A DNA stretch of 47,195 nt. Origin: a virus. The stretch lies in the IMG/VR virus record IMGVR_UViG_3300017755_004695, positions 1-47,195 of that record. One strand, 5' to 3'. Shown piece after piece: positions 1-31,283 of this stretch. The notes below the pieces were generated by a model. It was not told the DNA's origin. It did no database searches and saw nothing but the letters and a program-made list of their open reading frames with translations. The translations under genes were made by a program, and so were the position numbers. Every line of letters begins with the position of its first letter. Within the stretch, counting starts at the first letter, position 1.

Positions 1-200
1 TCAGGAATTCCTGAAAGCTTACCATCTAAACTCGTAATGCTTAATCCTTCTCTAGGATTTGGTTTACGAGGATTATACTGCTTCCATTCATCTTTAAAAT
101 ATTCTAATTCTTTTCTTGTTTTTCCAATATCAACATTAATATTGAGAGGAACGACATCACCTAAATTTGAAAGGTGTAACGCGATATTCGAGTCTATCAT
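1..200 (-). CDS. N-terminal part of a phage protein of unknown function (cut by window edge)
   Basis: An open frame runs from an ATG at 200 off the left edge, giving 66 residues without a stop. Its ATG overlaps the TGA of the upstream gene (ATGA), so it is translationally coupled. The visible part has the segment NPRKPNPREGLSITSLDGK followed by SGIP. From memory this resembles the start of proteins in marine T4-like phages that are sometimes treated as oxygenase-like, but the iron-binding region would lie outside the window, so no function is claimed. Confidence 0.7.
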   Translation of the reverse strand, partial: MIDSNIALHLSNLGDVVPLNINVDIGKTRKELEYFKDEWKQYNPRKPNPREGLSITSLDGKLSGIP

Positions 201-592
201 ATCATCAACTCCTTTATCCACGATTCATCTCTATTATTGTAGTAGTTAGTAAAATTGTTATGCATTTTTCTTATTTTAGTTTGAGCAAACCATGCGCCAA
301 GAAATGATGCCAGCATTTCCGGTGTCCATCTTATTCGATGTTTTTTATCACTAAGATAATTTAATCTCAGTACATCATCTAAAATAATATTTTCATTCTT
401 TGCAAATTTTTCTATGAAGCATCCTACAAAAACTATTTTAAAGTCACCTTCATGTTTCATTGCTTCTTCTTTTGTTAATACTATACAATCTATATTGTGT
501 GGATACACGTGTTTTAGATACTGTTCTTTTGCACGAGTACTCGAAACTATCACTAAGTTGCGTATATTAATCAGATGGAATGCCGAGTCCAC
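197..592 (-). CDS. Hypothetical protein, 131 codons
   Basis: Not recognised. The frame overlaps the upstream PP-loop gene by 26 bases and ends in ATGA overlap with the next gene, so it belongs to the same operon. The first possible start is a GTG at 592 with no clear ribosome binding site. The recognisable protein begins around LVIVSSTRAKEQYL, so the true start may be an alternative codon further in. It has a mixed alpha/beta composition, no signal peptide or membrane segment, and one aromatic/His-rich stretch near the C-terminus (MHNNFTNYYNN). Confidence 0.6.
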   Translation of the reverse strand: MDSAFHLINIRNLVIVSSTRAKEQYLKHVYPHNIDCIVLTKEEAMKHEGDFKIVFVGCFIEKFAKNENIILDDVLRLNYLSDKKHRIRWTPEMLASFLGAWFAQTKIRKMHNNFTNYYNNRDESWIKELMI

Positions 593-1559
593 TTTTCGGA
601 TACCTCCATGGAATGTCAGTTAAGTCGGGATACATCATACGATATAAATTTTTGTTTCCTTTTACATCACTTGGCATATTGACACACGTATGTATAAATG
701 CATTTTCTGCAAATGGATGTACCCATTTTAAAGAGTCTAATCCATAGTTAAAGAGTCTGTATGCTCCTTCATCTTGCAATCTACTAAACATAACTCTATT
801 TAATACGTCAGGATGTCTATCCCACTCAACAAACCTATTATAAAAATGCTCAACACATTCATCATAAATTGGATCATCACTGAGTTTTTTAACACTATTG
901 ATACGCCTGTAACTTCCGCAAACATTAACGTGCCAGTACGCTAAATCTTGTGGTTGATAACCCATCATGGCGGTGTACTGCAAACTTTGATTTATCTGCA
1001 TTTCACCAGTTCCAATTTCACCAGTAAATAATGTGTGATCTTCTAATCCAAGATCATTAAGTGCAATACATTTAGCGGTATATGGATTTTCAACCCAATA
1101 CTCAAACATGTGTGCAGGTATAGTATCGAGTTTGTAGTATTCTACTTCGATATCGAGAACATCTGCTATTTGCTGCACTACCGGCCGTTCACTAGTTATT
1201 GAAAGATCTGAGTATAAACTTATAGCTTTAAAAGGAATGTTTAATTTTTTAAATATGTGTGCTAATGCTGTGCTGTCTTTACCACCACTTAATGTTATAA
1301 CATTATTATCAGTGGCATATTTCTTTATTGTTTTTTCTATTATATTTCGTAAGTCTTGTACCTGAGCTTTATTGATTTGTTTATCAGGTAAGATAGGTCC
1401 GGCTTTGTGTCTTTTGCCTCCTTGCATTGGATGACGATTACTGACCGTCCATCCACCCAACATGGATCTTTCTTTATAAAAATTATCGTTTAAAGAATTA
1501 TTTTTACTCGTTGCTCCTTGAAAACTACATGAAAAAAAATCTACAGCATTTATATTCAT
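567..1559 (-). CDS. Asparagine synthase-like PP-loop ATP-dependent ligase (no glutaminase domain)
   Basis: The 330-residue protein has an intact PP-loop pyrophosphatase motif, LSGGKDSTAL (SGGKDS at residues 91-96). Its C-terminus (WVHPFAENAFIHTC, then WRYPKSGLGIP) resembles the end of the asparagine synthetase B synthase domain, where PF.D and a late RPK.G motif are typical. The N-terminal class II glutamine amidotransferase domain is missing: residues 1-60 have no catalytic Cys2. The protein probably adenylates a carboxylate and uses ammonia or another amine. It is the second PP-loop protein in this operon (the other is at 4347-5405) and overlaps the GNAT gene by four bases. The substrate is unknown; ExsB/QueC-type nucleoside chemistry is an alternative. 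Confidence 0.75.
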   Translation of the reverse strand: MNINAVDFFSCSFQGATSKNNSLNDNFYKERSMLGGWTVSNRHPMQGGKRHKAGPILPDKQINKAQVQDLRNIIEKTIKKYATDNNVITLSGGKDSTALAHIFKKLNIPFKAISLYSDLSITSERPVVQQIADVLDIEVEYYKLDTIPAHMFEYWVENPYTAKCIALNDLGLEDHTLFTGEIGTGEMQINQSLQYTAMMGYQPQDLAYWHVNVCGSYRRINSVKKLSDDPIYDECVEHFYNRFVEWDRHPDVLNRVMFSRLQDEGAYRLFNYGLDSLKWVHPFAENAFIHTCVNMPSDVKGNKNLYRMMYPDLTDIPWRYPKSGLGIPSD

Positions 1560-1999
1560 AATATCTTTCTTACATAACAGTTTGCTTCTGACGTTTCAGT
1601 TTCAAGCCAATCACTGGTCTTTACAAATCCACTTGCTTCATAAGCTGCAAGTGCAGTCTTACGAGGTAAACTCCATACGTATTTACATTGTTGTGAAAGA
1701 GCTTCATCAAATATTGCATCAAAGAGTTTGTAAGTAATACCCTGCCTACGACACTCAGGCTTAACCCACAATCCTCTAGACCTCATTTCATCATCACTTG
1801 ATTTGTGACATGAATTTACTGCAACTACTTCTTTATTACTCTCAAAGACAAAAAAAGATGGTTTATATTTTTCATAAATTTGACGATCGTGACCTCCAAG
1901 ATAAGTCATATCATTCATTGATCTTATTCTTTTTCTTAGAGGCCAGAGGTAAAAATACCAGTAGAGTTCTACTTCGTCAAAGTTACTTCGTCTTATCAT
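1556..1999 (-). CDS. GNAT-family N-acetyltransferase
   Basis: Residues around RSRGLWVKPECRRQGITYKL form the acetyl-CoA-binding motif A of GNAT enzymes (R/QxxG), followed by the usual helix and a C-terminal ALAAYEASGFVKT segment, where Y.k.GF is typical of the family. I start it at the ATG at 1999 (MIRRSNFDEVE), which lies inside the end of the tctC-like gene; a longer frame from 2041 would overlap that gene more. The protein is about 147 residues, normal for GNAT. The substrate is unknown. Position between the transporter and the PP-loop ligase suggests acylation of a small metabolite or of an amino group made by the neighbouring ligases (inference). Confidence 0.8.
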   Translation of the reverse strand: MIRRSNFDEVELYWYFYLWPLRKRIRSMNDMTYLGGHDRQIYEKYKPSFFVFESNKEVVAVNSCHKSSDDEMRSRGLWVKPECRRQGITYKLFDAIFDEALSQQCKYVWSLPRKTALAAYEASGFVKTSDWLETETSEANCYVRKIL

Positions 2000-3005
2000 G
2001 CACGTACTTAGCAGTTGACCATTGCATTTTTTCTTTTGCAAATGTAATTAAAGTCTTTAATCTTTCTGCTGTTACGTATCCGTATAATGAATCCATTATG
2101 ACTCTTGAATCTTCACCTATAAACATAGGATAGTCACCGAGTTTACTGATAAGATATTTCTGGCTTTCTTTGTCAGCCATCATTCGTTTGAATGCATCAA
2201 TAACTGCCAAGCTGTTAGAGCCGTGGTGCATAAAGATACCTTTTTGCAATCCATCTCTCCAAGCTGCAGCTAAGATATATGCTTCATATACTTCACCTTC
2301 AGGTTTTTTACCATAGGTTTTTTCGTATAAGTCAACAGCTGTAGGTGTATTAGGCCAGTTGTAGTCTTGAATAAATCCATTCTTCGGTGTAAACATACCG
2401 TGATTAAAAAGACGAACAGCTTTGCCTTCATCTACCATGCCGGCAGTATTCTTAATATGCCTGCTTGCAGGTTCACGTATATATTTAAAATCACCACGAA
2501 GCCATGCTGTCTTAGCTTCACCTGCACTCATCTTACGAATAAAGTTAATGTTATCCCATTCTTTCAGCATAGTCCATGCTAAAGTTTCAGGTACACAACC
2601 GGAACAATCGGCAAGATTTAACTTATCGTTCTTCCAATCAAAACCATTGGCTATGGTTGTAGTAATATTATAGGGTTGAATCATTATCGGCACCCAGTCT
2701 TTAAATGACCACTTCACATCATTAATCAACCATTGTGTAGCATTGCCACCATGAGCTAATAATATTGCTTTAGGATCATCTTTATATTTTTCCTTGAAGG
2801 TTTCTAATCCTAGGTTGCCTTTACCTCCTTTAATATTGACTACGTTTACACGTTCGTCGAGATACTTAGAAAGTTCTGCACTTACAACATCACCCCATAT
2901 AGCGGTGCCAGTGCCTTTAGGACTTGGAACAATAAGAGTATAATCGGCGATTGCACTCGATATAGTCATAAACATTCCAATAATAGTTAAAAGTAAGTTT
3001 TTCAT
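1983..3005 (-). CDS. tctC: TctC-like periplasmic binding protein of a tripartite tricarboxylate transporter
   Basis: A protein of about 340 residues with a clear signal peptide (MKNLLLTIIGMFMTISSAIA, then DYT) and a TctC/Bug-family start: a first beta strand, VPSPKGTGTAIWGDVV, and a second, VNVVNIKGGKGNLG, matching the family pattern of GGxxD/T and G..G. The start is the ATG at 3005, five bases after GAGG; a GTG six bases further upstream is less well placed. TctC proteins bind carboxylates in the periplasm and deliver them to TctA/TctB. The permease gene lies directly upstream, with 16 non-coding bases between the two frames. As a virus gene it would act in the infected host envelope. Confidence 0.85.
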   Translation of the reverse strand: MKNLLLTIIGMFMTISSAIADYTLIVPSPKGTGTAIWGDVVSAELSKYLDERVNVVNIKGGKGNLGLETFKEKYKDDPKAILLAHGGNATQWLINDVKWSFKDWVPIMIQPYNITTTIANGFDWKNDKLNLADCSGCVPETLAWTMLKEWDNINFIRKMSAGEAKTAWLRGDFKYIREPASRHIKNTAGMVDEGKAVRLFNHGMFTPKNGFIQDYNWPNTPTAVDLYEKTYGKKPEGEVYEAYILAAAWRDGLQKGIFMHHGSNSLAVIDAFKRMMADKESQKYLISKLGDYPMFIGEDSRVIMDSLYGYVTAERLKTLITFAKEKMQWSTAKYVHDKTK

Positions 3006-3021
3006 TTTCACCTCATTGTTC

Positions 3022-4350
3022 TTAAAAACTTATATTAATATTATATATTCCAATTGTTTGATAGCTTAATGCTTCAATCTTAGGGAATAGTATGAAAGCT
3101 AGTAGTATAGCAGGTCTATTTATAGAAAAAGTTTTAGCTATAATTCCTAGCGCTGAACATATAACAAGAGTTATAATGTCAAATTTAGTATTTGTTACTT
3201 GATAGCATGACCAACATATAAGAATCAATATAACAACTGCATAAATTCTTGGTGGTACTTTAAGAATCCATGTAATTGGTACACTCAATATTAAGCAAAG
3301 TAATCCTACAAGTAGTGTTCCTCCAATATATCCAATTGCTAAAGTATCGAAAAATTTATCATCATATTGAATATCAATCGATCCTAGTTCAAAGTGTAGC
3401 ATAAAGAACAGTGATAGTATCACAGCCGCAAATGGCGTACCCGGTATACCAAAAACCACAGTAGGCACAAAGCTCGCTGCATGTACTGCATTGTTCGCAC
3501 CTTCCGGTCCAACAACACCAGCAATTCGGCTATGAGGGTGCTCTCGTTTCGCTCGTCCATAGGATAACCAATCAGCGACTATTCCGTGCACACCAGGGAG
3601 AGCTCCTACAAAGGAACCTATCGCACCTCCAGTTAATGCTACCTTCTTATACTTATACCACGATTTCAAGCCTAATATTACATGTTTAAGATTAGCATTA
3701 AGATTCTCTACTTTAGGCTTATTAACAAACAGGTTTACCAACTCAGGTATAGCAAACAATCCACTTACAAAAATACTAATAGGTATTCCTGACGAAAAGT
3801 ATGTATATCCAAATGTTAACCTCTGAGCATTATTTTCATCAATACCAACATAACCAAACAAAAATCCTATTGCAACACCTAGCAATCCTAGTAACTTATT
3901 TTCTTTGATAAGAAAAACTACACACAGTAGTGCAAAAATATTAAGTAACAGCAATTCAAGCACGCCAAACACGAGAAGTAATTTAGCATAATACGGCATA
4001 AAGAAGAACACTAAAGATCCAAACAGTATACCACAAAGTGTGCTGCTTGTAAAGGCAGAACTTAATGCCAGTGTTGCTCTACCACTTCGCGCAATCGGAT
4101 AGCCGTCAACGACTGTTGCTGCTGAAGAAGATGAGCCGGGTATACCTAACAGTATTGAACTCCATGTATCGCCAGTTGTACATGCCGCAACAAGTGCAGT
4201 GTAGAATAATACACCGAGATATGGATCGTTGTAAAAGTACGGTAGGAATATAAAGCTCGTTAAGAGAGCTGTAGTTGGTCCTGCCGTTGGTATTATTCCA
4301 AACAACAGTCCATACGTTACACCGCAAAAAATAACAAATAATTCAATCAT
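3022..4350 (-). CDS. tctA: TctA-like permease of a tripartite tricarboxylate transporter
   Basis: 442 residues, strongly hydrophobic, with about ten or more membrane segments. TctA signatures are visible: an N-terminal glycine-rich loop (GIIPTAGPTTALL), the mid-protein GALPGVHGIVADWLSYGRAK, then VGPEGANNAVHAASFVPTVVFGIPGTPFAA, which matches the conserved P.GxG...EaannA...PllaLGiPGsp pattern. Typical TctA is about 500 residues, so this is somewhat short. Its ATG overlaps the stop of the upstream PP-loop gene (ATGA). No small TctB-type four-helix gene is seen nearby, so the virus would need the host's TctB, use an A+C-only system, or serve a different solute. Confidence 0.88.
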   Translation of the reverse strand: MIELFVIFCGVTYGLLFGIIPTAGPTTALLTSFIFLPYFYNDPYLGVLFYTALVAACTTGDTWSSILLGIPGSSSSAATVVDGYPIARSGRATLALSSAFTSSTLCGILFGSLVFFFMPYYAKLLLVFGVLELLLLNIFALLCVVFLIKENKLLGLLGVAIGFLFGYVGIDENNAQRLTFGYTYFSSGIPISIFVSGLFAIPELVNLFVNKPKVENLNANLKHVILGLKSWYKYKKVALTGGAIGSFVGALPGVHGIVADWLSYGRAKREHPHSRIAGVVGPEGANNAVHAASFVPTVVFGIPGTPFAAVILSLFFMLHFELGSIDIQYDDKFFDTLAIGYIGGTLLVGLLCLILSVPITWILKVPPRIYAVVILILICWSCYQVTNTKFDIITLVICSALGIIAKTFSINRPAILLAFILFPKIEALSYQTIGIYNINISF

Positions 4351-5405
4351 GAAAGTGGTCGTGTCATAACCGAGTCCCAGCTAGGCGGGTCTTCTTTTGA
4401 CTCTACTCCTAATAATTTATCAACATTCATAGATGCTCCAAAATGCCAAAGATTAGTAAATGCTCTTGAGAAATCAACCACTGATGGCTGAACTCCATAC
4501 TTCCTTCTTAAATATCTTCTCTGCATATTTGCAGCTGTCGCAGCTTTAGGTTTAAAATGATCTAAGTTCCATTCTTCCCATTTATATAATGAGTTAGGAC
4601 CTATGAAAGGATGAGTGCTTTTTCTGAATGTACACTCCGGCCAATCATCAAGAAATATGTCTTTAGTGTAGATTCCACCTTCTTTAAAAAATATTGTTCT
4701 TTTATCTTGTAAGATAGACTTAGCAGTTCTATAATCATTAAACCAAAAAGTTAAACAACTATGTCTTTTCGAAATATGACAGGCATATCTACCTTGTACT
4801 TCTCTTAAATCTACATAATGCATTCTTGTACGAGGATGTGGTTTACTAACACGAGCTAAGTTTCTTGCATGAGCTACACCTTCGCATAATGCACGTCTTC
4901 CACCAAGTAAATATCTATCTGTGGGAATATATTCAAATGCATGTAAGTAGGTGCTTATTACAGTTGTAGGTGTTAAGTAATCAGACAATAAAGTTAACAT
5001 ACTTTTTTTGTCTTTTTTCCAATCCCATTCTATAATGTTAAGTTTTACACCAGTCTCTTTTGATATTTGCTCTAATATATCCGTTTCAAAATTATCTTTC
5101 ATCCAAAATTTTATGTAGTACATTTCTACATCCAATTTCTTCTTAGCTAAATATCTTACCAATATTTCAGAATCTATTCCACTTATTAAAACTGCAAACT
5201 TATTGAAACCACATGTTGCTATTATCTTGTCTAAATACGCTTCGGATTCTTCTCTTATATTTCCTACGTCTGTAGGTAAATCTCGTGTTTTGACTGTTAC
5301 ACTATATATTGCACCATCTGTTTCTAAAAAATGTTTTAAAGGTTTAACGCCTAAAGGTTTATCGTTGACATACCAGTCAAACCATTCTGTTTTTAAATCA
5401 TACAT
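4347..5405 (-). CDS. PP-loop-like protein with a degenerate ATP motif
   Basis: 352 residues. Residues 71-80 (AVLISGIDSE) align with the SGGxDS PP-loop but the second glycine is Ile, so ATP pyrophosphatase activity is uncertain. Around it is the usual Rossmann-like layout: YYIKFWMKDNFETDILEQI then KLNIIEWDW resembles the post-loop strand and helix of asparagine synthase-like proteins. The middle has LLGGRRALCEGVAHARNL. The gene overlaps the upstream oxygenase-like gene by 13 bases and ends in ATGA overlap with tctA. I infer a paralogue or partner of the PP-loop protein at 567-1559. Substrate unknown. Confidence 0.65.
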   Translation of the reverse strand: MYDLKTEWFDWYVNDKPLGVKPLKHFLETDGAIYSVTVKTRDLPTDVGNIREESEAYLDKIIATCGFNKFAVLISGIDSEILVRYLAKKKLDVEMYYIKFWMKDNFETDILEQISKETGVKLNIIEWDWKKDKKSMLTLLSDYLTPTTVISTYLHAFEYIPTDRYLLGGRRALCEGVAHARNLARVSKPHPRTRMHYVDLREVQGRYACHISKRHSCLTFWFNDYRTAKSILQDKRTIFFKEGGIYTKDIFLDDWPECTFRKSTHPFIGPNSLYKWEEWNLDHFKPKAATAANMQRRYLRRKYGVQPSVVDFSRAFTNLWHFGASMNVDKLLGVESKEDPPSWDSVMTRPLS

Positions 5406-5938
5406 TCATTTATTTTTTCAGCTGATATTTGAGCGCCAGTAATTTCAAGTCGTATTCTTTTTTCTGAACCTTCATTGCCGCCACGATGTTCAAATATAGA
5501 ACTTCCAAATAATCGATACACATCATTAGCCTTCCAGTCCTCTATCATTAATCCATTATATTCAAAGTACTGGCCTGAAGTTTTATCGGATAATGGAATC
5601 CAATATTTTACAAAAACCTTATAACAATCTTTTGTATCAACATTTAATTTATGTACTTTTTGAATGTACTGATATATGTCAGTATGCATTGGAGTTGAAG
5701 AGCCAGCAGGAACCATTGTAAGATTTGCTTGATACAGTTTTAAATTTAAATCTTCTTCACAATAATGCTTAATATTTCTTGCAAAGTTATCGTCAAGATC
5801 GTGCATCTTTATAGTTTTATGGCCATTGTCTGTATGTGTCTTGAAACGCGTACGATTAAAAGTAGGGACATTATCCCAATCTATTTTTTCTGTGTAATGT
5901 TGTGTCTGAAAAGGTAAAACACCAATTTTTTCAAACAT
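5393..5938 (-). CDS. Fe(II)/2-oxoglutarate-dependent oxygenase-like protein
   Basis: About 181 residues. The sequence has a candidate metal triad: HTD in STPMHTDIYQY, and a distal His followed by a possible 2-oxoglutarate-binding Arg in FEHRGGNEGSEKRIRLEITG. WIPLSDKTSGQYFEYNG lies between them, as in double-stranded beta-helix hydroxylases. The ATG at 5938 is preferred over a TTG at 5956; neither has a strong ribosome binding site. A late-promoter-like TATAAATT sits just upstream (about 5959-5966). It is the first gene of the left accessory operon. The substrate is unknown; a cupin without 2OG dependence remains possible. Confidence 0.65.
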   Translation of the reverse strand: MFEKIGVLPFQTQHYTEKIDWDNVPTFNRTRFKTHTDNGHKTIKMHDLDDNFARNIKHYCEEDLNLKLYQANLTMVPAGSSTPMHTDIYQYIQKVHKLNVDTKDCYKVFVKYWIPLSDKTSGQYFEYNGLMIEDWKANDVYRLFGSSIFEHRGGNEGSEKRIRLEITGAQISAEKINECMI

Positions 5939-5964
5939 TTTGGTGTATGTGATCAATTTATATT

Positions 5965-6123
5965 CTAAGATACTTGTATAGCAACATAGATTAACATACC
6001 AAAAATACCAATATTAATTAACATGTTAATGTAGTGTGGATTCGGTGTCATTATCTCTCTCCTTTTTGATGCAGGTGGTGTGTATGATATTCCACCCGTA
6101 TAGTCAATTATTCTTCCCCACAT
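5965..6123 (-). CDS. Small single-span membrane protein, 52 residues
   Basis: ATG at 6123 shares one base with the stop of the gene upstream (TAATG), with AGGAGG placed just before it inside that gene. Stop TAG at 5965-5967. It begins MWGRIIDYTGGISYTPPASK, followed by a basic RRE and a C-terminal hydrophobic helix (INMLINIGIFGMLIYVAIQV). Not recognised. The strong ribosome binding site and coupling argue that it is real. It sits at the end of a three-gene set of small proteins downstream of the tmRNA. Confidence 0.75.
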   Translation of the reverse strand: MWGRIIDYTGGISYTPPASKRREIMTPNPHYINMLINIGIFGMLIYVAIQVS

Positions 6124-6338
6124 TAGTTACCTCCTAACCATGTGTTGACTTCGAAAACTTCAATCATCATGAAGCTAAACAGCAGAAGCAAAATACTCCA
6201 CAGTATCAGCTTACCGCTAAAGTTTGTTGCAGCCATCTTGATTGCAATAAGTTCATTACCTAAAAATCGTAGTGCTAATTCAAACTCGTTGTGCTCGTCT
6301 TTGACAACGATACCGTTTCTTTTTTCTGCTTCTGCCAT
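6123..6338 (-). CDS. Small membrane protein, 71 residues
   Basis: A charged N-terminal half (MAEAEKRNGIVVKDEHNEFE) is followed by an amphipathic stretch and one strong transmembrane segment (LILWSILLLLFSFMMIEVF). It resembles short conserved proteins in T4-like marine phages, but I know no function. It lies nine bases after the 77-residue gene and is coupled to the 52-residue gene that follows. Confidence 0.75.
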   Translation of the reverse strand: MAEAEKRNGIVVKDEHNEFELALRFLGNELIAIKMAATNFSGKLILWSILLLLFSFMMIEVFEVNTWLGGN

Positions 6339-6347
6339 GGATTTATC

Positions 6348-6581
6348 CTATTGTTTTTCGCTTACATATTGATAAAGCTCGTTTGCTTTTGCGATGATCT
6401 CATCCGGTTTATACATAGCGGGTGCGTGTTGCTGTATCGCCTTTTGAATATCTTCACGTTTTTCTTGTGCTTGATCGATCATTCGATACATGATATCCTG
6501 CTGTAAGCAGTAAGTTGAGTCGGCCATTTCTTTGGCCATTCTTAAAGTTTCGAGTCTGATCTCGTATGCGTTTTTAGACAT
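6348..6581 (-). CDS. Conserved small phage protein, 77 residues
   Basis: Preceded by a strong ribosome binding site (CAGGAGGACAAT then ATG). Begins MSKNAYEIRLETLRMAKEMA; predicted almost wholly helical, rich in Gln, Lys and Glu, no membrane segment. Proteins starting MSKNAYE with this helical make-up are, to my recollection, common in T4-like cyanophages, function unknown. It directly follows the coding piece of the tmRNA, so both may come from one transcript. Confidence 0.75.
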   Translation of the reverse strand: MSKNAYEIRLETLRMAKEMADSTYCLQQDIMYRMIDQAQEKREDIQKAIQQHAPAMYKPDEIIAKANELYQYVSEKQ

Positions 6582-6646
6582 ATTGTCCTCCTGTGTGTGT
6601 TAGTGGAGAGATTCTGTTTCCACGCTCTCTCCGAAGCGCATAGGAA

Positions 6647-6709
6647 TTACGCTGCTTGAGCGAACTCCTGAGGTGCAAAATTATCATTTGCATTTAGAGT
6701 TTTGTTCGC
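6647..6709 (-). other. tmRNA tag-peptide reading frame
   Basis: Within the tmRNA coding piece, a frame from GCG at 6709 to TAA at 6647-6649 encodes a 20-residue tag: ANKTLNANDN then FAPQEFAQAA. The ANDNFA core and the EFA.AA end match the alphaproteobacterial tag pattern (AANDNFAEEFAVAA in Caulobacter), though the last four residues are AQAA rather than ALAA or AVAA. The resume codon is inferred; GTT and AAT just upstream are in the same frame. Confidence 0.85.
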
Positions 6710-6778
6710 ATTAACCGAGCTTACATCCGGATAACTCCACATCGCTATTTCGTCCCTGTCGATCCTATTTCAGCCCCA

Positions 6779-6916
6779 TCAGAAAAACTTGGTAAACAAT
6801 TCATTAAAAAAAATATATGCACCATAACCATATACACATACAATGACTGTTTTTAATACCTTGTTCATTTGGTCATCAGCCATATATACCCAGTGGTGAT
6901 ATTTATTTTTACTCAT
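6779..6916 (-). CDS. 45-residue membrane protein encoded inside the tmRNA intervening segment
   Basis: ATG at 6916 has AAAGG six bases upstream and lies 21 bases after the CCA end of the tmRNA acceptor piece. The stop TGA (6779-6781) lies two bases before the GGGG start of the coding piece. The protein starts MSKNKYHHWVYMADDQMNKV and ends with a hydrophobic helix (TVIVCVYGYGAYIFF). The frame fills the segment that RNA processing would discard. Not recognised; a ribosome binding site and a membrane helix favour a real gene. Confidence 0.65.
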   Translation of the reverse strand: MSKNKYHHWVYMADDQMNKVLKTVIVCVYGYGAYIFFNELFTKFF

Positions 6917-7008
6917 AATGTACCTTTCAAGTTTTTATGGTGGAGCTGTCGGGTACCGCCCCCGAGTCCAGCAAACCTTTCGCTTTGTTTCATCGTTATA
7001 TAGTATAT

Positions 7009-7037
7009 ATTATACCACATTTTTTATCATTTGTAAA
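7009..7037 (-). promoter_or_regulatory. Sigma70-type promoter of the tmRNA
   Basis: On the minus strand, TTTACA (7037-7032), a 17-base spacer ending TGG, then TATAAT (7014-7009). This is the same pattern as eleven other promoters in the window. Transcription would start near 7002, just before the acceptor piece. Confidence 0.85.
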
Positions 7038-7046
7038 GGCTTTTTT

Positions 7047-7054
7047 TATAAATA
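7047..7054 (+). promoter_or_regulatory. T4-type late promoter for the plus-strand block
   Basis: A perfect TATAAATA, 24 bases before the ATG at 7079, with AGAAGAGG as ribosome binding site. This matches the T4 late promoter recognised by gp55/gp33-modified polymerase. It lies back to back with the minus-strand tmRNA promoter (7009-7037). Confidence 0.8.
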
Positions 7055-7078
7055 GTTACAGAAGAAGAGGAACTATAC

Positions 7079-7561
7079 ATGATAGAAGTAGCAGCGGCAT
7101 TAAGTGTAGCAACCACTGCATTTAACGCAATCAAAAAAGGTTTTGAAGTCGGTCGTGATATCGAGTCTATGTCTGGCGACTTGAGTCGGTGGATGGGGTC
7201 AGTATCAGATATCGATAAGGCAGGAGAGTATGCAAAGAAACCTCCATTATTTAAAAAATTATTTGCAGCAGGTTCAGTTGAAGAAGAAGCGATGGCGTCA
7301 TTTATGGCTAAGAAGAAAGCCGAAGACATGCGTTATCAACTGAAACAACTTATATCACTAACTCGAGGACCAGCGGCATGGGAAGAACTTTTAGCTACTG
7401 AAGGTGCCATACGTAAGAAGCGTCAAAAAATGGTATATGAGCAAAAAGAAAGACAAAGAAAAGTAATAGAAATTGCTGGAATTGTTTTTTTGGTAGTATT
7501 TGTTGGAGGTTTTGTCGCATGGGTAACTGGATCATTGTTAAAGGCCCAAGGTATCATTTAA
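7079..7561 (+). CDS. Conserved T4-like marine phage protein with C-terminal membrane anchor
   Basis: 160 residues. The N-terminal part (VATTAFNAIKKGFEVGRDIES then MSGDLSRWMGSVSDI) and the middle (KKPPLFKKLFAAGSVEEEAM) resemble a family I remember from T4-like cyanophages, with no assigned function. A long charged helix (residues about 75-135) leads into one transmembrane segment (IAGIVFLVVFVGGFVAWVTG). It is first in the plus-strand unit under the late promoter at 7047, so expression late in infection and a virion or lysis-related role are plausible. Confidence 0.75.
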   Translation: MIEVAAALSVATTAFNAIKKGFEVGRDIESMSGDLSRWMGSVSDIDKAGEYAKKPPLFKKLFAAGSVEEEAMASFMAKKKAEDMRYQLKQLISLTRGPAAWEELLATEGAIRKKRQKMVYEQKERQRKVIEIAGIVFLVVFVGGFVAWVTGSLLKAQGII

Positions 7562-7933
7562 TTGAAAACTTGGTTAACCACATTCACAATCATATTTCTT
7601 ATCTTCGCGTTAACGATAGTAGCACACGCAGATGGTAAGACATATGAGCCAAAAGATCCAAAGTACGGTACAAAGAAAAACTACACAAATCAACAGAAAA
7701 TAAATAGAGGTACCAATGCCTCAAAGAAAGTATATACTACTTGTAGACTAGCCAAGAGAATTAAATCACGTGTTACAGGTAGACAGGCCTGCATTTATAA
7801 AGGTGGCAACAAGACATTTACATTAATGTATGAAGATAATTGCCCTTCTCAATATAAGTGCGTATACAACCCGTGGGGTAAAGAACCAAGTATCGACGAT
7901 GTAGTTGATAGTTTAAATTCAATTAAGAAGTAG
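7562..7933 (+). CDS. Small secreted, cysteine-containing basic protein
   Basis: 123 codons starting with TTG at 7562, immediately after the previous stop. A signal peptide (WLTTFTIIFLIFALTIVAHA, then DGK) precedes a basic mature region with four cysteines (TTCRLAKR, GRQACIY, DNCPSQYKCVYNPWG), likely two disulphides in the periplasm. Resembles secreted hypothetical proteins next to the same neighbour in T4-like marine phages; no function known. Confidence 0.72.
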   Translation: MKTWLTTFTIIFLIFALTIVAHADGKTYEPKDPKYGTKKNYTNQQKINRGTNASKKVYTTCRLAKRIKSRVTGRQACIYKGGNKTFTLMYEDNCPSQYKCVYNPWGKEPSIDDVVDSLNSIKK

Positions 7934-7941
7934 AGGTAAGC

Positions 7942-8073
7942 ATGGAAGGAAGTCCAGAAAGATGGTGTAATAAATGTAATTGTAGATGTCATTGCTATTC
8001 GCCAGAATGTCCAAACTGCGCTAATGATGTATGCACAGACTGTGATTGTAAAGAAGATGAAGTTCAAACATGA
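7942..8073 (+). CDS. Cysteine-rich mini-protein, metallothionein- or zinc-knuckle-like
   Basis: A 43-residue frame from ATG 7942 (preceded by AGAGGTAAGC) to TGA 8071-8073. Ten of the first 36 residues are cysteine, at 9, 12, 14, 16, 18, 23, 26, 31, 34 and 36: CxxCxCxCxC, then CPNC, then CTDCDC. This density is typical of metallothioneins or multi-zinc knuckles. The frame overlaps the next gene's start at 8057. It lies in a late operon between secreted or basic proteins. No homologue recognised. Confidence 0.7.
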   Translation: MEGSPERWCNKCNCRCHCYSPECPNCANDVCTDCDCKEDEVQT

Positions 8074-8374
8074 AGACATGTTGATGGATATGACAATATC
8101 ATCTAAAACAAAATTGTATAAAGATGATATATTACTTTTTATTGGTGATGGTTATAAGGCTATTACTATGATGATAAACAGTTCAAAAGACCAACAACCA
8201 GTAAAAGATAAGTTTCATAAACAATTAACTATGAGAGAGAAACCTAAGTTTTCTAAAGGTGATGATCTCGAAGCACTACGAAAAGAAGCACTTGAAAGCT
8301 TTGGTAAACCAAAAGAAGAGAAACCAAACAAAAAGTCAAAGAAAACAAATCAGTGGGAAAGACTTACTAAATGA
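8057..8374 (+). CDS. Hypothetical protein, 105 residues, basic C-terminal tail
   Basis: The ATG at 8057 (MKFKHEDMLMDMT) is favoured over the one at 8024, which has no ribosome binding site. A compact N-terminal part (KLYKDDILLFIGDGYKAITMMI) is followed by a low-complexity charged tail with LEALRKEALESFGKPKEEK. Similar short proteins occur in T4-like marine phages. No motif identified. It overlaps the cysteine-rich gene by 17 bases and the next gene by four. Confidence 0.65.
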   Translation: MKFKHEDMLMDMTISSKTKLYKDDILLFIGDGYKAITMMINSSKDQQPVKDKFHKQLTMREKPKFSKGDDLEALRKEALESFGKPKEEKPNKKSKKTNQWERLTK

Positions 8375-8589
8375 TGCATGCATTTTTATTAATGGTATAC
8401 TTAGGTTCAAGAGTAGTGAGTCAAGACATGTATTTTCAAGACATTGATCGGTGTAAATACTTTGCCGAAAGACTAAACAATCAACCACCCGTACCAAATC
8501 CCGTTGCACAAGAAGATGCGCCTAGGATAATAACATACACTGCTGTATGCGTACCTAAGCGCATCGGTAAAAACACTAAAGTGTATTAG
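8371..8589 (+). CDS. Small hypothetical protein, 72 residues, hydrophobic N-terminus
   Basis: ATGATG start overlaps the preceding TGA. The first 18 residues (MMHAFLLMVYLGSRVVSQ) look like a short signal peptide. The mature part has two cysteines (DIDRCKYFAERLNNQP and YTAVCVPKR), which could pair in the periplasm. It is the last plus-strand gene; its stop overlaps head-on with the stop of the minus-strand mini-gene at 8586-8687. Confidence 0.65.
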   Translation: MMHAFLLMVYLGSRVVSQDMYFQDIDRCKYFAERLNNQPPVPNPVAQEDAPRIITYTAVCVPKRIGKNTKVY

Positions 8590-8687
8590 GCTGCTCTCAG
8601 TGGCATGCGATAGTTTAGAATTCTATGAACTCTAGCGCGATCACGTGCCTGACAAAACCTCTTCCAAGAAAATGGTCTGTAAGTCAT
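8586..8687 (-). CDS. 33-residue arginine-rich mini-protein
   Basis: ATG at 8687 has a strong GGGAGGG eight bases upstream; stop TAA at 8586-8588. It starts MTYRPFSWKRFCQARDRARV, and nine of 33 residues are Arg. Predicted to be a short basic helix, possibly nucleic-acid binding. The strong ribosome binding site is the main evidence. It converges tail to tail with the plus-strand block. Confidence 0.65.
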   Translation of the reverse strand: MTYRPFSWKRFCQARDRARVHRILNYRMPLRAA

Positions 8688-8772
8688 TAGTCACCCTCCC
8701 TAATTAATGGTTAGGTGCGTTCCTTCAGCGACTGCCTACTTCCGCCCTTTCGGGTGAACGTTTAATGTATTA

Positions 8773-9000
8773 CTATTTATATAACTCGATTATTTTAAGT
8801 GGATGCTTTTCACCGTTTTTTATTTCGAACTCGAGCTTGCCTTCTTGACATACCCATCTTGGTCCGCCGGGTCCTTGCTTTCTTTTGATGTATCTCTTCA
8901 CTTTCAAACATTGCATCATCGAGTCACGAGGTGTAAACTCTGTAGGTTTAACATCTCCACTCATAAACATTAACAAAATAAATCCTGTGAATATTTCCAT
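8773..9000 (-). CDS. Small hypothetical protein with N-terminal hydrophobic segment, 75 residues
   Basis: Begins MEIFTGFILLMFMSGDVKPT, a short signal- or anchor-like segment, then a basic region with two cysteines (MMQCLKVKRYIKRKQGPGG, RWVCQEGKLEFEI). Its ATG is coupled to the stop of the 135-residue gene upstream. Not recognised; similar secreted two-cysteine proteins occur repeatedly in this window. Confidence 0.65.
   Translation of the reverse strand: MEIFTGFILLMFMSGDVKPTEFTPRDSMMQCLKVKRYIKRKQGPGGPRWVCQEGKLEFEIKNGEKHPLKIIELYK
8774..8781 (-). promoter_or_regulatory. Putative late promoter TATAAATA upstream of the 33-residue gene
   Basis: A perfect TATAAATA reading leftward, 86 bases before the ATG at 8687. 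It coincides with the last codons of the upstream gene (Tyr-Lys-stop), so it could also be chance. Confidence 0.4.
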
Positions 9001-9407
9001 TAGTGTTTTCCGTTTATTACTTTATCTTTCAGCTTTTCTATCTGGTCCTCGAGTTTTTCAATTCTTGACTTATAAAAGTCGAGTGTAAGCTTTTGTTGTT
9101 GATCGAATGGAGCTTTACCTGTTTCAATATTCTTTGCAAGTTTTTCTAATTGGCCAGCAAGATGTTCAATTAACATGAATTGTTCTGCATCTGCAGGTAA
9201 GCTACCCATCTCGCCACGAGGCCACTTAATTCTAAACTCGGTATTCTTTTCAAGGTCTGTGTTAATTATAATAAGGTCAGTTTCTACCTTGTTTAATCTT
9301 TCAATAATACCGAAGTATGCCCATACACCTACAGCTACTGCCATTATGATGGAAAGCAGATTTCTTATCGGCATTTCAACGCCAGTGTTTTCAGATATCT
9401 TTGGCAT
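9000..9407 (-). CDS. Membrane-anchored coiled-coil protein, 135 residues
   Basis: A short N-terminal segment (MPKISENTGVEMPIRN) precedes one transmembrane helix (LLSIIMAVAVGVWAYFGI). Then comes a predominantly helical part with heptads (ERLNKVETDLIIINTDLEK and KSRIEKLEDQIEKLKDKV) around a WPRGEMGSLPADAEQF linker. Proteins with this layout are common in T4-like cyanophages and may be virion- or baseplate-associated, but no function is established to my knowledge. AAGGAG precedes the ATG and a late promoter lies at 9426. Confidence 0.72.
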   Translation of the reverse strand: MPKISENTGVEMPIRNLLSIIMAVAVGVWAYFGIIERLNKVETDLIIINTDLEKNTEFRIKWPRGEMGSLPADAEQFMLIEHLAGQLEKLAKNIETGKAPFDQQQKLTLDFYKSRIEKLEDQIEKLKDKVINGKH

Positions 9408-9425
9408 AAGTACTCCTTACAGTAT

Positions 9426-9433
9426 TATTTATA
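9426..9433 (-). promoter_or_regulatory. T4-type late promoter
   Basis: Perfect TATAAATA reading leftward, followed by ATACT, the ribosome binding site AAGGAG and the ATG at 9407. Intergenic and at the expected distance. Confidence 0.75.
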
Positions 9434-9435
9434 TG

Positions 9436-9494
9436 CTGTCAAAATATTGACAGTTACTATAATTTGACACACTGTACTGTCAGGTTTTTGACAG
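9436..9494. repeat. Cluster of inverted repeats with CTGTCA/TGACAG arms
   Basis: Two inverted repeats share the same arms. At 9436-9453, CTGTCAA and TTGACAG flank AATA, a perfect 7+7. At 9477-9494, CTGTCA and TGACAG flank six bases. A further TGACA lies between them at 9465-9469. The second overlaps the end of the upstream gene. Either tandem RNA hairpins ending that transcript, or operator half-sites upstream of the late promoter. Confidence 0.6.
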
Positions 9495-9821
9495 ATCAGT
9501 ATTGTACTTATACTCAATATCACCACACTTATCAAATTCATTCATATCATGGACATATAGTTGTATAATTCCATAATGTAATACTTTAAGTAAATCTTTA
9601 CGAGCATCACTACTCGTACCTTTTTTACCGTATCTTTGAGCATACTTCATAATATTACCGATACAGAAACCTGTACCGTGGCCGCCATCAATAATAAATT
9701 CTGTTGCTTGGAAATGCTGCCTAGAATAATGACCAGTATAAGTTGAATCAATTACTCTTAGTAACTCTTCAACATATTCTTTTTCATTAAATTTATATTC
9801 ACCTTTCGGTTCTTTACTCAT
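9480..9821 (-). CDS. DUF3310-like phage protein
   Basis: 113 residues from the ATG at 9821, which has AGGAGGTGAGC in front; a frame extension to 9845 lacks this. The core (HYSRQHFQATEFIIDGGHG, FCIGNIMKYAQRYGKKG, then DLLKVLHYGIIQLY) matches the DUF3310 pattern HY...e.ID.i...g...GN.iKYi.R.g.K.g..DL.Ka..YL. Such proteins are frequent in phages and poorly characterised. It overlaps the preceding gene's end by eight bases. Confidence 0.75.
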   Translation of the reverse strand: MSKEPKGEYKFNEKEYVEELLRVIDSTYTGHYSRQHFQATEFIIDGGHGTGFCIGNIMKYAQRYGKKGTSSDARKDLLKVLHYGIIQLYVHDMNEFDKCGDIEYKYNTDLSKT

Positions 9822-10176
9822 GCTCACCTCCTGGGTCATTATCATCTAATTTAACTCTTTTACCATTTATCCACATATATTGTCTTGCTCTTGGAAAACT
9901 ATGGTAACCATTACTTTTTATAAACCATTGCGGCTTATTTCTTGCAGTTTCAAAAGTAGCTACTGTTATCGCAATAGCTGCTAATAGAAATATATGAGCA
10001 ATAGTAGTGGCACCAAAAATCCACATGCTACCAAAGTAACTACTAAATACAATGCACCACATCCACGCTAAGACCTGAAGTACCATGTGCCTTGTATTCG
10101 TATGCGGTATTTTTTTAAGCGGATTAATATCCGCATTCATTACGCCGTTCCAACTATCGTAAATAAACTGTCTCAT
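9814..10176 (-). CDS. Two-span membrane protein, 120 residues
   Basis: Starts MRQFIYDSWNGVMNADINPL, followed by two closely spaced hydrophobic segments (VLQVLAWMWCIVFSSYFGSM and ATTIAHIFLLAAIAITVATF), then a hydrophilic tail (YHSFPRARQYMWINGKRV). Unrecognised in function; similar to conserved membrane proteins of T4-like marine phages. ATGA-coupled to the preceding gene. Confidence 0.7.
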   Translation of the reverse strand: MRQFIYDSWNGVMNADINPLKKIPHTNTRHMVLQVLAWMWCIVFSSYFGSMWIFGATTIAHIFLLAAIAITVATFETARNKPQWFIKSNGYHSFPRARQYMWINGKRVKLDDNDPGGEHE

Positions 10177-25045: not shown

Positions 25046-25394
25046 TTTTTATTTTTTTATATAAAATATGTAATATAAAAAACCAACAACCATTTATTAT
25101 TGGTTCAACAAGAGCTACAGCACCTGCTTCCCATATGCTGGCGCCTGTCATAAAATATACAACATTCATGGCAATAATGATATGACCTAGAGTATAGATT
25201 ACAGCAAGAACTAAGCTATCCATTTTTAACATTTGTCTTATAAATGGTTCTCTTGTTTTTTGTTTCATGGCTTTCCACTTAGGATCTTGTCTTAGTTTCC
25301 ATAACATCCAGTCATAGTATCTTTCTGGTTCAGGATCAGGTAGTTCTATGTGTTGGCCAGTCCCCGTCATATCTTGAGTATACTTATTCGACAT
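25038..25394 (-). CDS. DUF2061-like membrane protein, 118 residues
   Basis: A hydrophilic N-terminal 60 residues (ERYYDWMLWKLRQDPKWKAM) precedes two membrane helices (LVLAVIYTLGHIIIAMNVVY and GAVALVEPIINGCWFFILHI). The spacing and the TG...A....veP.i....y.lH pattern resemble DUF2061, a small inner-membrane family. Overlaps ThyX by 11 bases and the radical SAM gene by eight. Confidence 0.6.
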   Translation of the reverse strand: MSNKYTQDMTGTGQHIELPDPEPERYYDWMLWKLRQDPKWKAMKQKTREPFIRQMLKMDSLVLAVIYTLGHIIIAMNVVYFMTGASIWEAGAVALVEPIINGCWFFILHILYKKIKSE

Positions 25395-26067
25395 TTACAA
25401 ACTCCTCAGCCATTGGAAATATTTTAGATATAGCTTCAGCACATGCAACAGCAACTTCACTACATTCTTTTTGTGTGCCATTTGCCGAACGTAATTCAAT
25501 GAAATGAATCCAACTTCTGATAGTTCCATTCATATATAATCTAGAAGTTGTTAATCCTTCAGGTAACACTGCTCTTGCTACCTCTTTTGCGATTCCTTTT
25601 TTAATTGCCGCAGCATAAACTTGTTTGCACATCCAGATAACTCGCTTTTGTTCTCTTTCCCAATCGAGTTGGAAAGTTTTGTCATCAACTTCGATACTAC
25701 TTTGTCTATTCTCTGTATCTTGCATTCTCGCTTCTCGTGTGACAAATTGTAACTCCTTTACTGGATTTGCATATCTTTGACTAAACTCTTGAAAACTAAA
25801 ACTACGATGTCTTAATATTTGTCTGGCAATGTCGCGTGTGGTATTGATCTCAATACATGCACTTACCATTTCAAATGGTGACCAGTGCTTGTGTTTAGCA
25901 AGATATTTTAATAATTTTTCTGATGTTTTACTATTATTTTGATTTGATGGATTAGAAACTCTTGCACAAAAAGCCACCAAGTCTTGACAATCTCTTGGCA
26001 TAGCTTTTCTGCTATCGTATGTAGTAAACTCAGATGGTTTACTATAAGAAATTAATTTTGCTATCAA
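25384..26067 (-). CDS. thyX: Flavin-dependent thymidylate synthase ThyX
   Basis: 227 residues. The ThyX signature RHRSFSFQEFSQRYA is complete (family RHRxxSxxExSQRYx). KHKHWSPFEMVSACIEINTT is the upstream H.S..Eh...f block, and AVLPEGLTTSRLYMNGTIRS then WIHFIELRSANGTQ the C-terminal lP....t......n.Rsl.hfl.lR. It makes dTMP from dUMP using FAD, NADPH and methylene-tetrahydrofolate. It replaces T4's ThyA-type td and works alongside dCMP deaminase (32882) feeding dUMP. Confidence 0.95.
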   Translation of the reverse strand: MIAKLISYSKPSEFTTYDSRKAMPRDCQDLVAFCARVSNPSNQNNSKTSEKLLKYLAKHKHWSPFEMVSACIEINTTRDIARQILRHRSFSFQEFSQRYANPVKELQFVTREARMQDTENRQSSIEVDDKTFQLDWEREQKRVIWMCKQVYAAAIKKGIAKEVARAVLPEGLTTSRLYMNGTIRSWIHFIELRSANGTQKECSEVAVACAEAISKIFPMAEEFVNVE

Positions 26068-29314: not shown

Positions 29315-29343
29315 ATTATACCATAAATTCGTCTAATTGTAAA
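29315..29343 (-). promoter_or_regulatory. uvsX promoter embedded in the end of the C5-methyltransferase gene
   Basis: Minus strand TTTACA (29343-29338), 17 bases ending TGG, TATAAT (29320-29315). The bases from -35 to -10 encode the last residues of the upstream protein (LQLDEFMV), and its stop TAA lies within TATAAT. Confidence 0.8.
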
Positions 29344-30512
29344 GGTTTATTTTCACTAATTATCGATTGATTTTTATTATCTTGAATCATAAAATCTTGA
29401 TTCCATAATTGATTATCTAATCTGCCATCACAGAATCTTAAAACATTTTCTGCCATGTCTGTTGCAGTAGTAACTGGTACATTTTGACAGATATGATTTA
29501 AATTTTTTACACCACCTTGTAAAATAAAGTCTTGTGGTAATCCCATTATGTTTAAACATTCTCTTATAGTGAGATGTCTATCAATATCAGGATGTGTAAG
29601 TTTAGTAGGTGCACTGCCTACAAATGCACCTATGTAATTCTTTGGTATATATACACCTCTTCTCATTATATTACCACCAGATGCTAGTTTTTCATGCATT
29701 ACTTTACACCGCACTGCTTGTTTTTCAAAACCATTAGATGACATCCATTTTGATACTTCATTATATGTCACACGTTTATCTTCAATGTAATGAAGAACAT
29801 CATAACTCTTTTTGATTTTATTTTGAAATTCATTATGAGTTATGCCACCTTCAAGTTCTTCAAGTACATATTTGTAATACGGATCATCAGACGGTGTTGC
29901 TGAGTTTGTAAGTACATTCATTGGATCATCTGAATTATTATGAGTTGACCTAATAGTATCTTCAATCTTTTGATGTTTTCTTTTTACATAACTTAGTTGT
30001 GGTACTTTGTCGCCTTTCCAAAAGAAATAGAAAGATCTATCTCTTACTTGTCCGAGTCCATGAAGGAGAGACTTTGTTTTATATAACGAGAAAGTGTAGC
30101 CATGCTCTCTTCCAATTTGACGGAGACCTTCAACAATAGGCTCTCCCATCTTTGAAGCAAGTCTTGGTGCGTTTTCGCCCCAGAATACTTTAGGTTTGAG
30201 TGTACCCAAGACATAATTAGCAGAGGTAGACATCCAATCGTTAGCAGCAGCATCAGAAGATGCTGAAGTATTGAGACTAGACAAGCCAGCACAAGGACAT
30301 ACGGTATTAACAACATCGACAGAAGGTAAGTCGTATGACCTGTTATTTCCCAAAAGATAGTAGGGAACTTGTCCTTTATAATATTCCACCAAGTGTGTAT
30401 CGTTTGCTTTGAAATCTTCATAACTTAATATGTACTCCGGTTTCTTTTTGAAAACATTTTGCATTGCAATTGTTTCGCCACCTATAAGTGGTACTATGCT
30501 TGCATAATTCAT
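29316..30512 (-). CDS. DNA (cytosine-5) methyltransferase
   Basis: 398 residues. Catalytic Cys is in VVNTVCPCAGLSSLN (PC motif IV); KPKVFWGENAPRLA is motif VI (EN); YKTKSLLHGLGQVRDRSFYF is motif VIII (QxRxR). After a roughly 150-residue target-recognition region, HPDIDRHLTIRECLNIMGLP then QDF is motif IX (Rx.t.rE...lqg.P.df), with a motif X-like NVPVTTATDMA. Motif I is shortened (SIVPLIGG at the very N-terminus). The tail QLDEFMV resembles the clamp-binding tail TLEDFFV of gp43 and the neighbouring glucosyltransferase. It heads the DNA-modification island. Confidence 0.85.
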   Translation of the reverse strand: MNYASIVPLIGGETIAMQNVFKKKPEYILSYEDFKANDTHLVEYYKGQVPYYLLGNNRSYDLPSVDVVNTVCPCAGLSSLNTSASSDAAANDWMSTSANYVLGTLKPKVFWGENAPRLASKMGEPIVEGLRQIGREHGYTFSLYKTKSLLHGLGQVRDRSFYFFWKGDKVPQLSYVKRKHQKIEDTIRSTHNNSDDPMNVLTNSATPSDDPYYKYVLEELEGGITHNEFQNKIKKSYDVLHYIEDKRVTYNEVSKWMSSNGFEKQAVRCKVMHEKLASGGNIMRRGVYIPKNYIGAFVGSAPTKLTHPDIDRHLTIRECLNIMGLPQDFILQGGVKNLNHICQNVPVTTATDMAENVLRFCDGRLDNQLWNQDFMIQDNKNQSIISENKPLQLDEFMV

Positions 30513-31261
30513 TAGAGTGCAATCGTTTTCTTTACGAGATAATCTTCAACTTCTACTTTTGGTTCCCAACCTAAAGCTCTCATTTCTGAAATATCTGCAG
30601 TATTATCTTGTGCCTCACAAGGATCACCATCTCTTATTTCGATACCTTCCCATCCTGCAAGTATTCCAAGATCCATAACTACGTTTCCTACACCCGTACC
30701 AATATCATATGCCGGTTTTAATAATCTAATATCTTTACTTAAGAGTAAAACTATTGCTTCAACTACATCACTAACGTGTACAAAGTCTCTTACGTGTCTT
30801 GTAAGATAACCAATTGAACCATCAATAAGTTTACCAATAAGCATGGATTCTCTAGCTCCATCACCATAAACAGTAGTAAATCTTAAAGCTACTTGATTTT
30901 GCATAGCTGTTTCTTCATTTACTTTTTTACTTGTCCCATAAGGTGATAACCACCAGTTATGTATGCAAGAAGATGATGCATATAATAATGGTATGTTATT
31001 GTAACCACATATCTTTTGTATACGTGTAGTATTATTTACATTATTAGTCCAATACTTTTGTGGTTCTTTAAGACTTTGTCTTACATCAGCGTATGCAGCT
31101 AAATGCACAACGTGTGTTACATCGTTAGGACTAAAGTCTTCTATATCTTTTGATGGTTCATGTCTTAAATCCCATTCAACTACGTCATGGCCATCAGCTT
31201 CAAGCTTAGTTTTTAAGTGGCCGCCTATAAAACCACTTGATCCTGTAATTGCTACTTTCAT
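30512..31261 (-). CDS. NAD(P)-dependent sugar epimerase/dehydratase (extended SDR)
   Basis: 249 residues. MKVAITGSSGFIGGHLKTKL is the GxxGxxG nucleotide-binding motif. VTHVVHLAAYADVRQSLKEP is the HLAA strand, and LLYASSSCIHNWWLSPYGTS then K carries Ser and YxxxK (YGTSK). VALRFTTVYGDGAR is R..nvYGp. Shorter than typical UDP-sugar epimerases (about 310). ATGA-coupled to the glucosyltransferase upstream, so it likely makes or modifies the nucleotide sugar that enzyme uses; this link is inference. Confidence 0.85.
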   Translation of the reverse strand: MKVAITGSSGFIGGHLKTKLEADGHDVVEWDLRHEPSKDIEDFSPNDVTHVVHLAAYADVRQSLKEPQKYWTNNVNNTTRIQKICGYNNIPLLYASSSCIHNWWLSPYGTSKKVNEETAMQNQVALRFTTVYGDGARESMLIGKLIDGSIGYLTRHVRDFVHVSDVVEAIVLLLSKDIRLLKPAYDIGTGVGNVVMDLGILAGWEGIEIRDGDPCEAQDNTADISEMRALGWEPKVEVEDYLVKKTIAL

Positions 31262-31283
31262 ACGAAAAAATCCTCCAATGTTG
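31258..31283. repeat. 26-bp direct repeat shared with the 3' end of the polymerase gene (copy 1)
   Basis: Identical to 39106-39131 over 26 bases. It covers the last codons of agt (LEDFFV region), its stop, and the ATG overlap with the next gene. Same reading frame and same ATGA-type junction in both places. Confidence 0.9.

Follow-up and report, generated by a model that had tools for sequence, protein, structure and literature searches.

A TctA/TctC-type transporter pair without a detected TctB in a gene cassette of T4-like phages

At one end of the virus record IMGVR_UViG_3300017755_004695 of IMG/VR (positions 1 to 47,195; this whole stretch of 47,195 nucleotides of virus DNA is called “the window” below) lies a gene block that encodes a TctA-family permease and a TctC-type periplasmic binding protein of the tripartite tricarboxylate transporter (TTT) family among several putative enzymes. 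The block is compact, runs on the minus strand from 5938 to 197 and reaches the window end, with short overlaps or gaps between its genes (Table 1). An initial annotation, made from the DNA letters, had described the transporter genes as embedded through overlaps in a phage operon, and all the genes that it named were confirmed on the minus strand. Judged from its genes, the window is a fragment of a T4-like phage: its DNA polymerase has its best matches among members of the Kyanoviridae and related phages (45–50%), and it also encodes UvsX, a DnaB-type helicase and thymidylate synthase. The setting is apparently marine, judged from related phages.

Table 1. Genes of the transporter cassette in the window and the RNA gene on its flank
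Feature	Position	Strand	Remarks
OXY, oxygenase-like	5393..5938	-	begins at ATG 5938, or at TTG 5956 in a longer form; opens the block
PPL2, second PP-loop-like protein, 352 aa	4347..5405	-	conserved SGxDSE motif
TctA-family permease, 442 aa	3022..4350	-	PF01970, two GIPG repeats retained
TctC-type periplasmic binding protein, 342 aa	1983..3011	-	signal peptide ending AIA|D
GNAT acetyltransferase	1556..1999	-	ATG 1999, longer TTG form to 2041; PF00583
PPL1, asparagine/beta-lactam-synthetase-type PP-loop protein	567..1559	-	without glutaminase domain
U592, conserved 131-aa protein	197..592	-	always downstream of PPL1; viral alignments
Asp/Arg-hydroxylase-like 2-oxoglutarate (2OG) oxygenase, N-terminal fragment	3..221	-	truncated at window end; hidden Markov model 3.1e-26
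Permuted alpha-type transfer-messenger RNA (tmRNA), cassette flank	6602..7041	-	Rfam RF01849 120.5 bits, RF04321 115.6 bits

The window TctA matches PF01970 over the complete model (positions 1–423 of 423; E = 3.3e-83; 280 bits with a cut-off of 28.9) and holds two GIPG sites, the duplicated Gly/Pro repeat motif of PF01970 permeases. Its partner has no PF03401 match in Pfam at E ≤ 0.1 and no NCBIfam match and, because it lies below the Pfam PF03401 cut-off, is labeled TctC-like here. A profile of six viral copies retrieved only TctC-family chains from the PDB, all of them weakly (best E 0.0096), and a predicted structure of low confidence (predicted local distance difference test, pLDDT, 52) ranked TctC proteins first in Foldseek (1.9e-6) and gave a best Z-score of 10.5 in VIA-align, where the top 11 rows all belong to the TctC family (TctC/Bug). 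The N-terminus was read by eye as a signal peptide, with a basic start, a hydrophobic core and AIA|D. TctC identity across the cassettes is 73–78%, and for TctA, TctC and PPL1 the rate of nonsynonymous change (dN) is 0.10–0.34 with near-saturated synonymous change (dS), which points to strong purifying selection (dN/dS about 0.06–0.19 for TctA where dS is computable); because dN is this low against near-saturated dS, the three are not chance open reading frames (ORFs).

The TctB component was not detected: its profile PF07331, applied to the window only, gave zero matches even at E ≤ 10, and viral TctA stops before the TctB part that is present in its nearest bacterial relatives. A TctB stand-in within the window cassette was considered and rejected, as no small ORF there has two or more hydrophobic segments. 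The permease and periplasmic binding protein of the TTT family lacking TctB, as initially annotated, are hence confirmed by PF01970, by the TctC profile and fold and by the absence of PF07331. We file the system as TTT-like and not as a canonical TTT because a host TctB or an unrecognized small membrane protein may take part; carboxylate uptake is a prediction only. The absence of TctB in the window and a proposed involvement of bacterial TctC homologs in signaling (PMC5812351) would also suit a sensor, a receptor decoy or a superinfection-exclusion device in place of an importer, a reading that we consider very unlikely because TctA, as a functional transporter should, retains the two GIPG repeats and matches the Pfam model in full.

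The cassette recurs in eight other independently assembled contigs, seven from IMG/VR and one from the bin of the Rickettsiales metagenome-assembled genome (MAG) MED657, with TctA and TctC adjacent in all eight. The recurrent order is PPL2, TctA, TctC, Asp/Arg-hydroxylase-like oxygenase, GNAT, PPL1 and U592, from which the window deviates in that the Asp/Arg-hydroxylase-like oxygenase is placed after U592. Other oxygenases or radical-SAM genes are inserted into this order in some contigs, and the enzyme set as a whole varies between them (Rieske-like, TauD-like, nitronate-monooxygenase-like, radical SAM).

The position of the cassette at the contig end would fit an assembly error that joined bacterial DNA to a phage contig, and the initial annotation had pointed to a possible break near 5900–6100. 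Two separately assembled contigs (loci L002 and L003) repeat the junction: on the 6000–9900 side of the cassette they carry the window's phage genes together with a permuted tmRNA (86–88 bits), and because these junction genes and the tmRNA are shared, misassembly is ruled out there. Nor does any sampled bacterium have viral-grade copies, and the nearest copy in a bin, that of MED657, lies on a contig (NZHE01000012.1, 46,940 bases) with tail-fiber-like genes and a radical-SAM gene array, whose genes recur on a contig listed as a virus in IMG/VR; all told, a bacterial origin of this stretch by assembly error is extremely improbable. On NZHE01000012.1, about a dozen tandem radical-SAM/SPASM-like genes lie between the tail-fiber-like and the cassette genes (position 6906 of locus L024 to position 14077 of locus L025). 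At least two contigs of MED657, a species representative, look viral (loci L022, L024, L025 and L120); the bin measures 2.0 Mb, compared with 0.9–1.6 Mb in its order, and contains three tmRNAs.

Among the enzymes beside the transporter, PPL1 has an SGGKDST loop that is invariant in 7 sequences and, in the six closest sequences, a C-terminal WRYPKSGLGIP, which we take to resemble the catalytic-lysine region of asparagine synthetases. Its predicted structure, again of low confidence (pLDDT 58.6), aligned in VIA-align with beta-lactam synthetase (Z 14.3), carbapenam synthetase (13.7) and asparagine synthetase (13.4), the top 11 rows all being synthetases (Z 14.3–12.8). Beta-lactam and asparagine synthetases share the fold and the SGGKDS PP-loop with PPL1 and differ in that the window PPL1 lacks a glutaminase domain. 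Because PPL1 misses the Pfam Asn_synthase cut-off (18 versus 21 bits), we call it synthetase-like; its relative in L022 exceeds the Pfam NAD_synthase cut-off and is longer, and the N-terminal part may be a degenerate glutaminase-like domain. The modeled fold fits the early suggestion that a carboxylate is ligated to an amine. PPL2 has a sub-threshold Pfam match to QueC only and a motif of the form SGxDSE rather than the full SGGxDS, with SG-DS invariant among its relatives (42–49% in L002–L004, 41% in L025). GNAT matches PF00583 (1.2e-10) and is found in most cassettes, not in L004. In OXY, an HTD...H motif of Fe/2OG oxygenases is visible in the sequence; searches of Pfam (one sub-threshold DUF), PHROG, NCBIfam and phages gave no match, and the gene is missing from the other cassettes. 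Full-length relatives of the Asp/Arg-hydroxylase-like oxygenase retain HxD...H, and one occurs in Pelagibacter phage Mosig (41%). Of the enzymes annotated at the outset, the first PP-loop protein thus stands by fold and GNAT by Pfam, whereas PPL2 and OXY are putative assignments from motifs. Three candidates were discarded: a further PPL1 match, on a 6.3-kb contig, spans 79 residues and is of generic PP-loop type; no bacterial source of PPL1 was found, as 398 Proteobacteria gave generic PP-loop matches and nothing close outside the virus contig; and a siderophore or beta-lactam-type product, considered from the enzyme classes, found no evidence.

Profile scans of IMG/VR with PPL1, U592 and PPL2, run independently, returned cassette contigs: U592 was found on these only, and PPL2 on these and on one contig that ends inside TctA. 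The three proteins co-occur with TctA and TctC wherever a contig reaches far enough, and contigs lacking TctA in the examined stretch terminate before or inside it; transporter and ligases, which had been suspected of acting together, strictly co-occur in the cassette clade. This strict co-occurrence of TctA, TctC, PPL1, U592 and PPL2, the amide-bond-forming synthetase fold of the PPL1 model and the adjoining GNAT and HxD...H oxygenases would suit an import that feeds phage biosynthesis, in which PPL1 would adenylate the acid and join it to an amine and its neighbors would acetylate and hydroxylate, so that either a small molecule or an altered component of the cell would result. We hold this to be possible but doubtful, given that the enzyme set differs between cassettes and that a second viral clade, described below, has the transporter without these enzymes. 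The enzyme content varies, and tail-fiber-like genes lie close to it in L004, L005, L024 and Pelagibacter phage Mosig, the last of which has a similar enzyme mix. This also lends itself to a reading in which transporter and enzymes are unrelated cargo of a hypervariable accessory region near tail-fiber genes, the enzymes modifying surface or capsule. PPL1 and U592 keep their place downstream of TctC although other genes differ between contigs, and we would entertain this only tentatively.

The transporter genes have a wider distribution among viruses than the cassette. The initial annotation had called such a transporter rare on phage genomes, which is wrong because relatives of TctA sit on at least 154 IMG/VR contigs, a count that is a lower bound and depends on the search patterns (a profile of six TctA sequences). 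The best 80 of the 154 loci were examined: 8 are cassette contigs, and 72 form a second clade with 43–47% identity to the window TctA. TctC was detected in 70 of these 72 loci, in 57 as the next ORF and mostly with an 8-base overlap with TctA; PPL1, PPL2 and U592 were found in none of the 72 within the examined stretch. Since the second clade has TctA and TctC without the ligases, the transporter does not generally depend on them. Of 67 second-clade loci, 31 have a methyltransferase-like gene ahead of TctA, and TctC is often followed by a gene for DUF6552 (76 aa), for a 117-aa membrane protein or for an oxygenase-like protein; the two small membrane proteins, present in many loci of this larger clade, might replace TctB. 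Further neighbors belong to T4-like head, terminase, tail-lysozyme, PhoH, spanin and single-stranded-DNA-binding families. Isolate phages in the collection have no close relative of TctA or TctC, the matches being of about 24–31% and in bacterial- or fecal-looking records; some entries filed there as phages, such as AGRM01000002.1, a Salmonella contig of 691 kb, look bacterial and carry ordinary bacterial TctA.

In trees, every viral TctA protein falls into a single clade, which divides into two subclades and is set apart by a branch of about 1.8–2.0 changes per site, and the adjoining bacterial members closest to this clade are TctA–TctB fusions. Profiles found no viral-grade TctA in 398 Proteobacteria (770 versus at most 348 bits) and no viral-grade TctC in 385 genomes from the class to which MED657 belongs (531 versus at most 119 bits). 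Host capture was further sought with cassette-clade patterns: a TctC profile scan of 84,980 species genomes gave zero matches, and the TctA scan gave only the virus contig in MED657. As the larger viral clade does not show these TctA patterns, the scans are uninformative on its bacterial relatives. Recent capture from SAR11, against which the initial annotation had proposed to compare the genes, or from any other sampled bacterium is not supported because viral TctA and TctC form separate, distant clades.

For both viral subunits, the closest bacterial relatives lie side by side in alphaproteobacterial operons, many of tricarballylate/aconitate type, with TctC beside a TctA–TctB fusion; of the closest bacterial TctC proteins, one is above and one below the Pfam cut-off. 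In these operons TctB is fused to TctA, whereas viral TctA stops short of that portion. Most of the twelve bacterial neighborhoods covered (named by NCBIfam/Pfam on representatives and by clustering for the others) include PrpF/4-oxalomesaconate tautomerase, the tricarballylate dehydrogenase TcuA, TcuB, isopropylmalate/isocitrate-dehydrogenase-type genes or a TctD-like regulator; TcuA, TcuB and PrpF genes were not seen beside the viral pair. One streamlined genome of 1.24 Mb carries a comparable gene set beside an aconitase-like gene. Because many of the nearest bacterial systems sit in operons of tricarballylate/aconitate type, the relatives hint at tricarboxylates as the ancestral ligand class.

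We think it rather likely that the cassette encodes a virus-specific, two-component, TctB-less carboxylate uptake system, for which coupling to amide-forming enzymes is plausible and unproven. TctC would be secreted to the periplasm and bind a small organic acid there, the likeliest candidates being di- and tricarboxylates of the citrate, aconitate or tricarballylate kind, and would pass it to TctA, which would move it inward across the inner membrane by means of an ion gradient, as in TTT systems (PMC5812351). Transport would proceed without a phage TctB, either independently of TctB or by borrowing that of the host, and the supply of the acid would thereby rise during infection. In the cassette clade, the transporter is predicted to be transcribed together with PPL1, PPL2, GNAT and the 2OG oxygenases, and these enzymes probably serve to form or alter an amide-containing product; the imported acid may, as a further step, be their substrate. 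Several points weigh against this scheme. The second viral clade, with no PPL1, PPL2 or U592, argues against a fixed pathway and makes enzyme coupling its weakest step. Viral TctC shows invariant residues of its own, GGN, RE and RDG-QK, where bacterial proteins have the motifs GSTQ, YGSQGAT and DYQTS, and viral TctA falls, on its branch of 1.8–2.0 changes per site, outside the Tcu-associated clade, so that the present ligand may differ from the ancestral one; and without TctB, the pair might be inactive alone. A bolder version, in which T4-like phages evolved their own TctB-free importer lineage with a ligand unlike that of any known bacterial TTT and one branch became coupled to a phage-encoded amide-bond-forming pathway, the virus importing a precursor and turning it into a product during infection, strikes us as unlikely.

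Naming the host from the flanking tmRNA was attempted and given up, as the window tag ANDNFAPQEFAQAA differs from ANDNEMALAA, the tag in the order of MED657; in that order, which may not be that of the host, all 31 genomes besides MED657 lack an above-cut-off TctA match. Permuted tmRNA in a marine phage has already been mentioned (PMC9004378). The window also contains a glutamine riboswitch (RF01739, 54.6 bits; 8714–8762, minus strand), behind which lies a short ORF, roughly 33 codons in length (MTYRPFSWKRF...), without assigned function; riboswitches of this class have been treated in the literature on marine phages. Minus-strand genes at 31258–32529, 29316–30512 and 25384–26067 are alpha-glucosyltransferase-like, DNA-methyltransferase-like and of the thymidylate-synthase family, respectively, and together make modified, glucosylated DNA possible.

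A SUP05 single-cell study (Roux 2014, PMC4164917) lists tctA as a protein-domain-only match on a viral contig, a finding that a review takes up again (PMC6359870), and PMC8115048 names genes for tricarboxylate transport on a T4-like scaffold of oxygen-minimum-zone origin. The genes of PMC4164917 and PMC8115048 are probably of the same kind as those described here; both papers mention them in passing, and the passages concerned describe no TctC pairing, TctB loss, clade structure or cassette. A literature search that left subscription papers, preprints and supplements outside turned up no account of TctA paired with TctC in viruses, of the lack of TctB, of the viral clade or of the cassette. 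With bacterial TTT systems (TctCBA; Bug/TctC) the viral system shares the complete TctA domain, the TctC fold, the adjacent genes and the signal peptide; it differs in having no detected TctB gene, in its virus-only clades and in a TctC that is below the Pfam cut-off and has its own conserved residues. With the marine phage proteins PstS, AmtB and FocA (PMC6359870, PMC8115048) it has in common that an uptake function is carried by a phage, whereas the predicted substrate is an organic acid and not phosphorus or nitrogen, a permease and a binding protein are combined and no close bacterial source was found.

The transport genes known so far from ocean phages serve mostly phosphorus and nitrogen. 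If the proposed function is true, the virus may dictate which carbon acid its host takes up and consumes during infection, and a virus-only organic-acid importer on many T4-like phage contigs could switch the carbon diet of infected cells and affect the turnover of dissolved organic carbon. For the transporter family, the viral pair offers a direct test of the role of TctB and of whether TctA and TctC can work alone.

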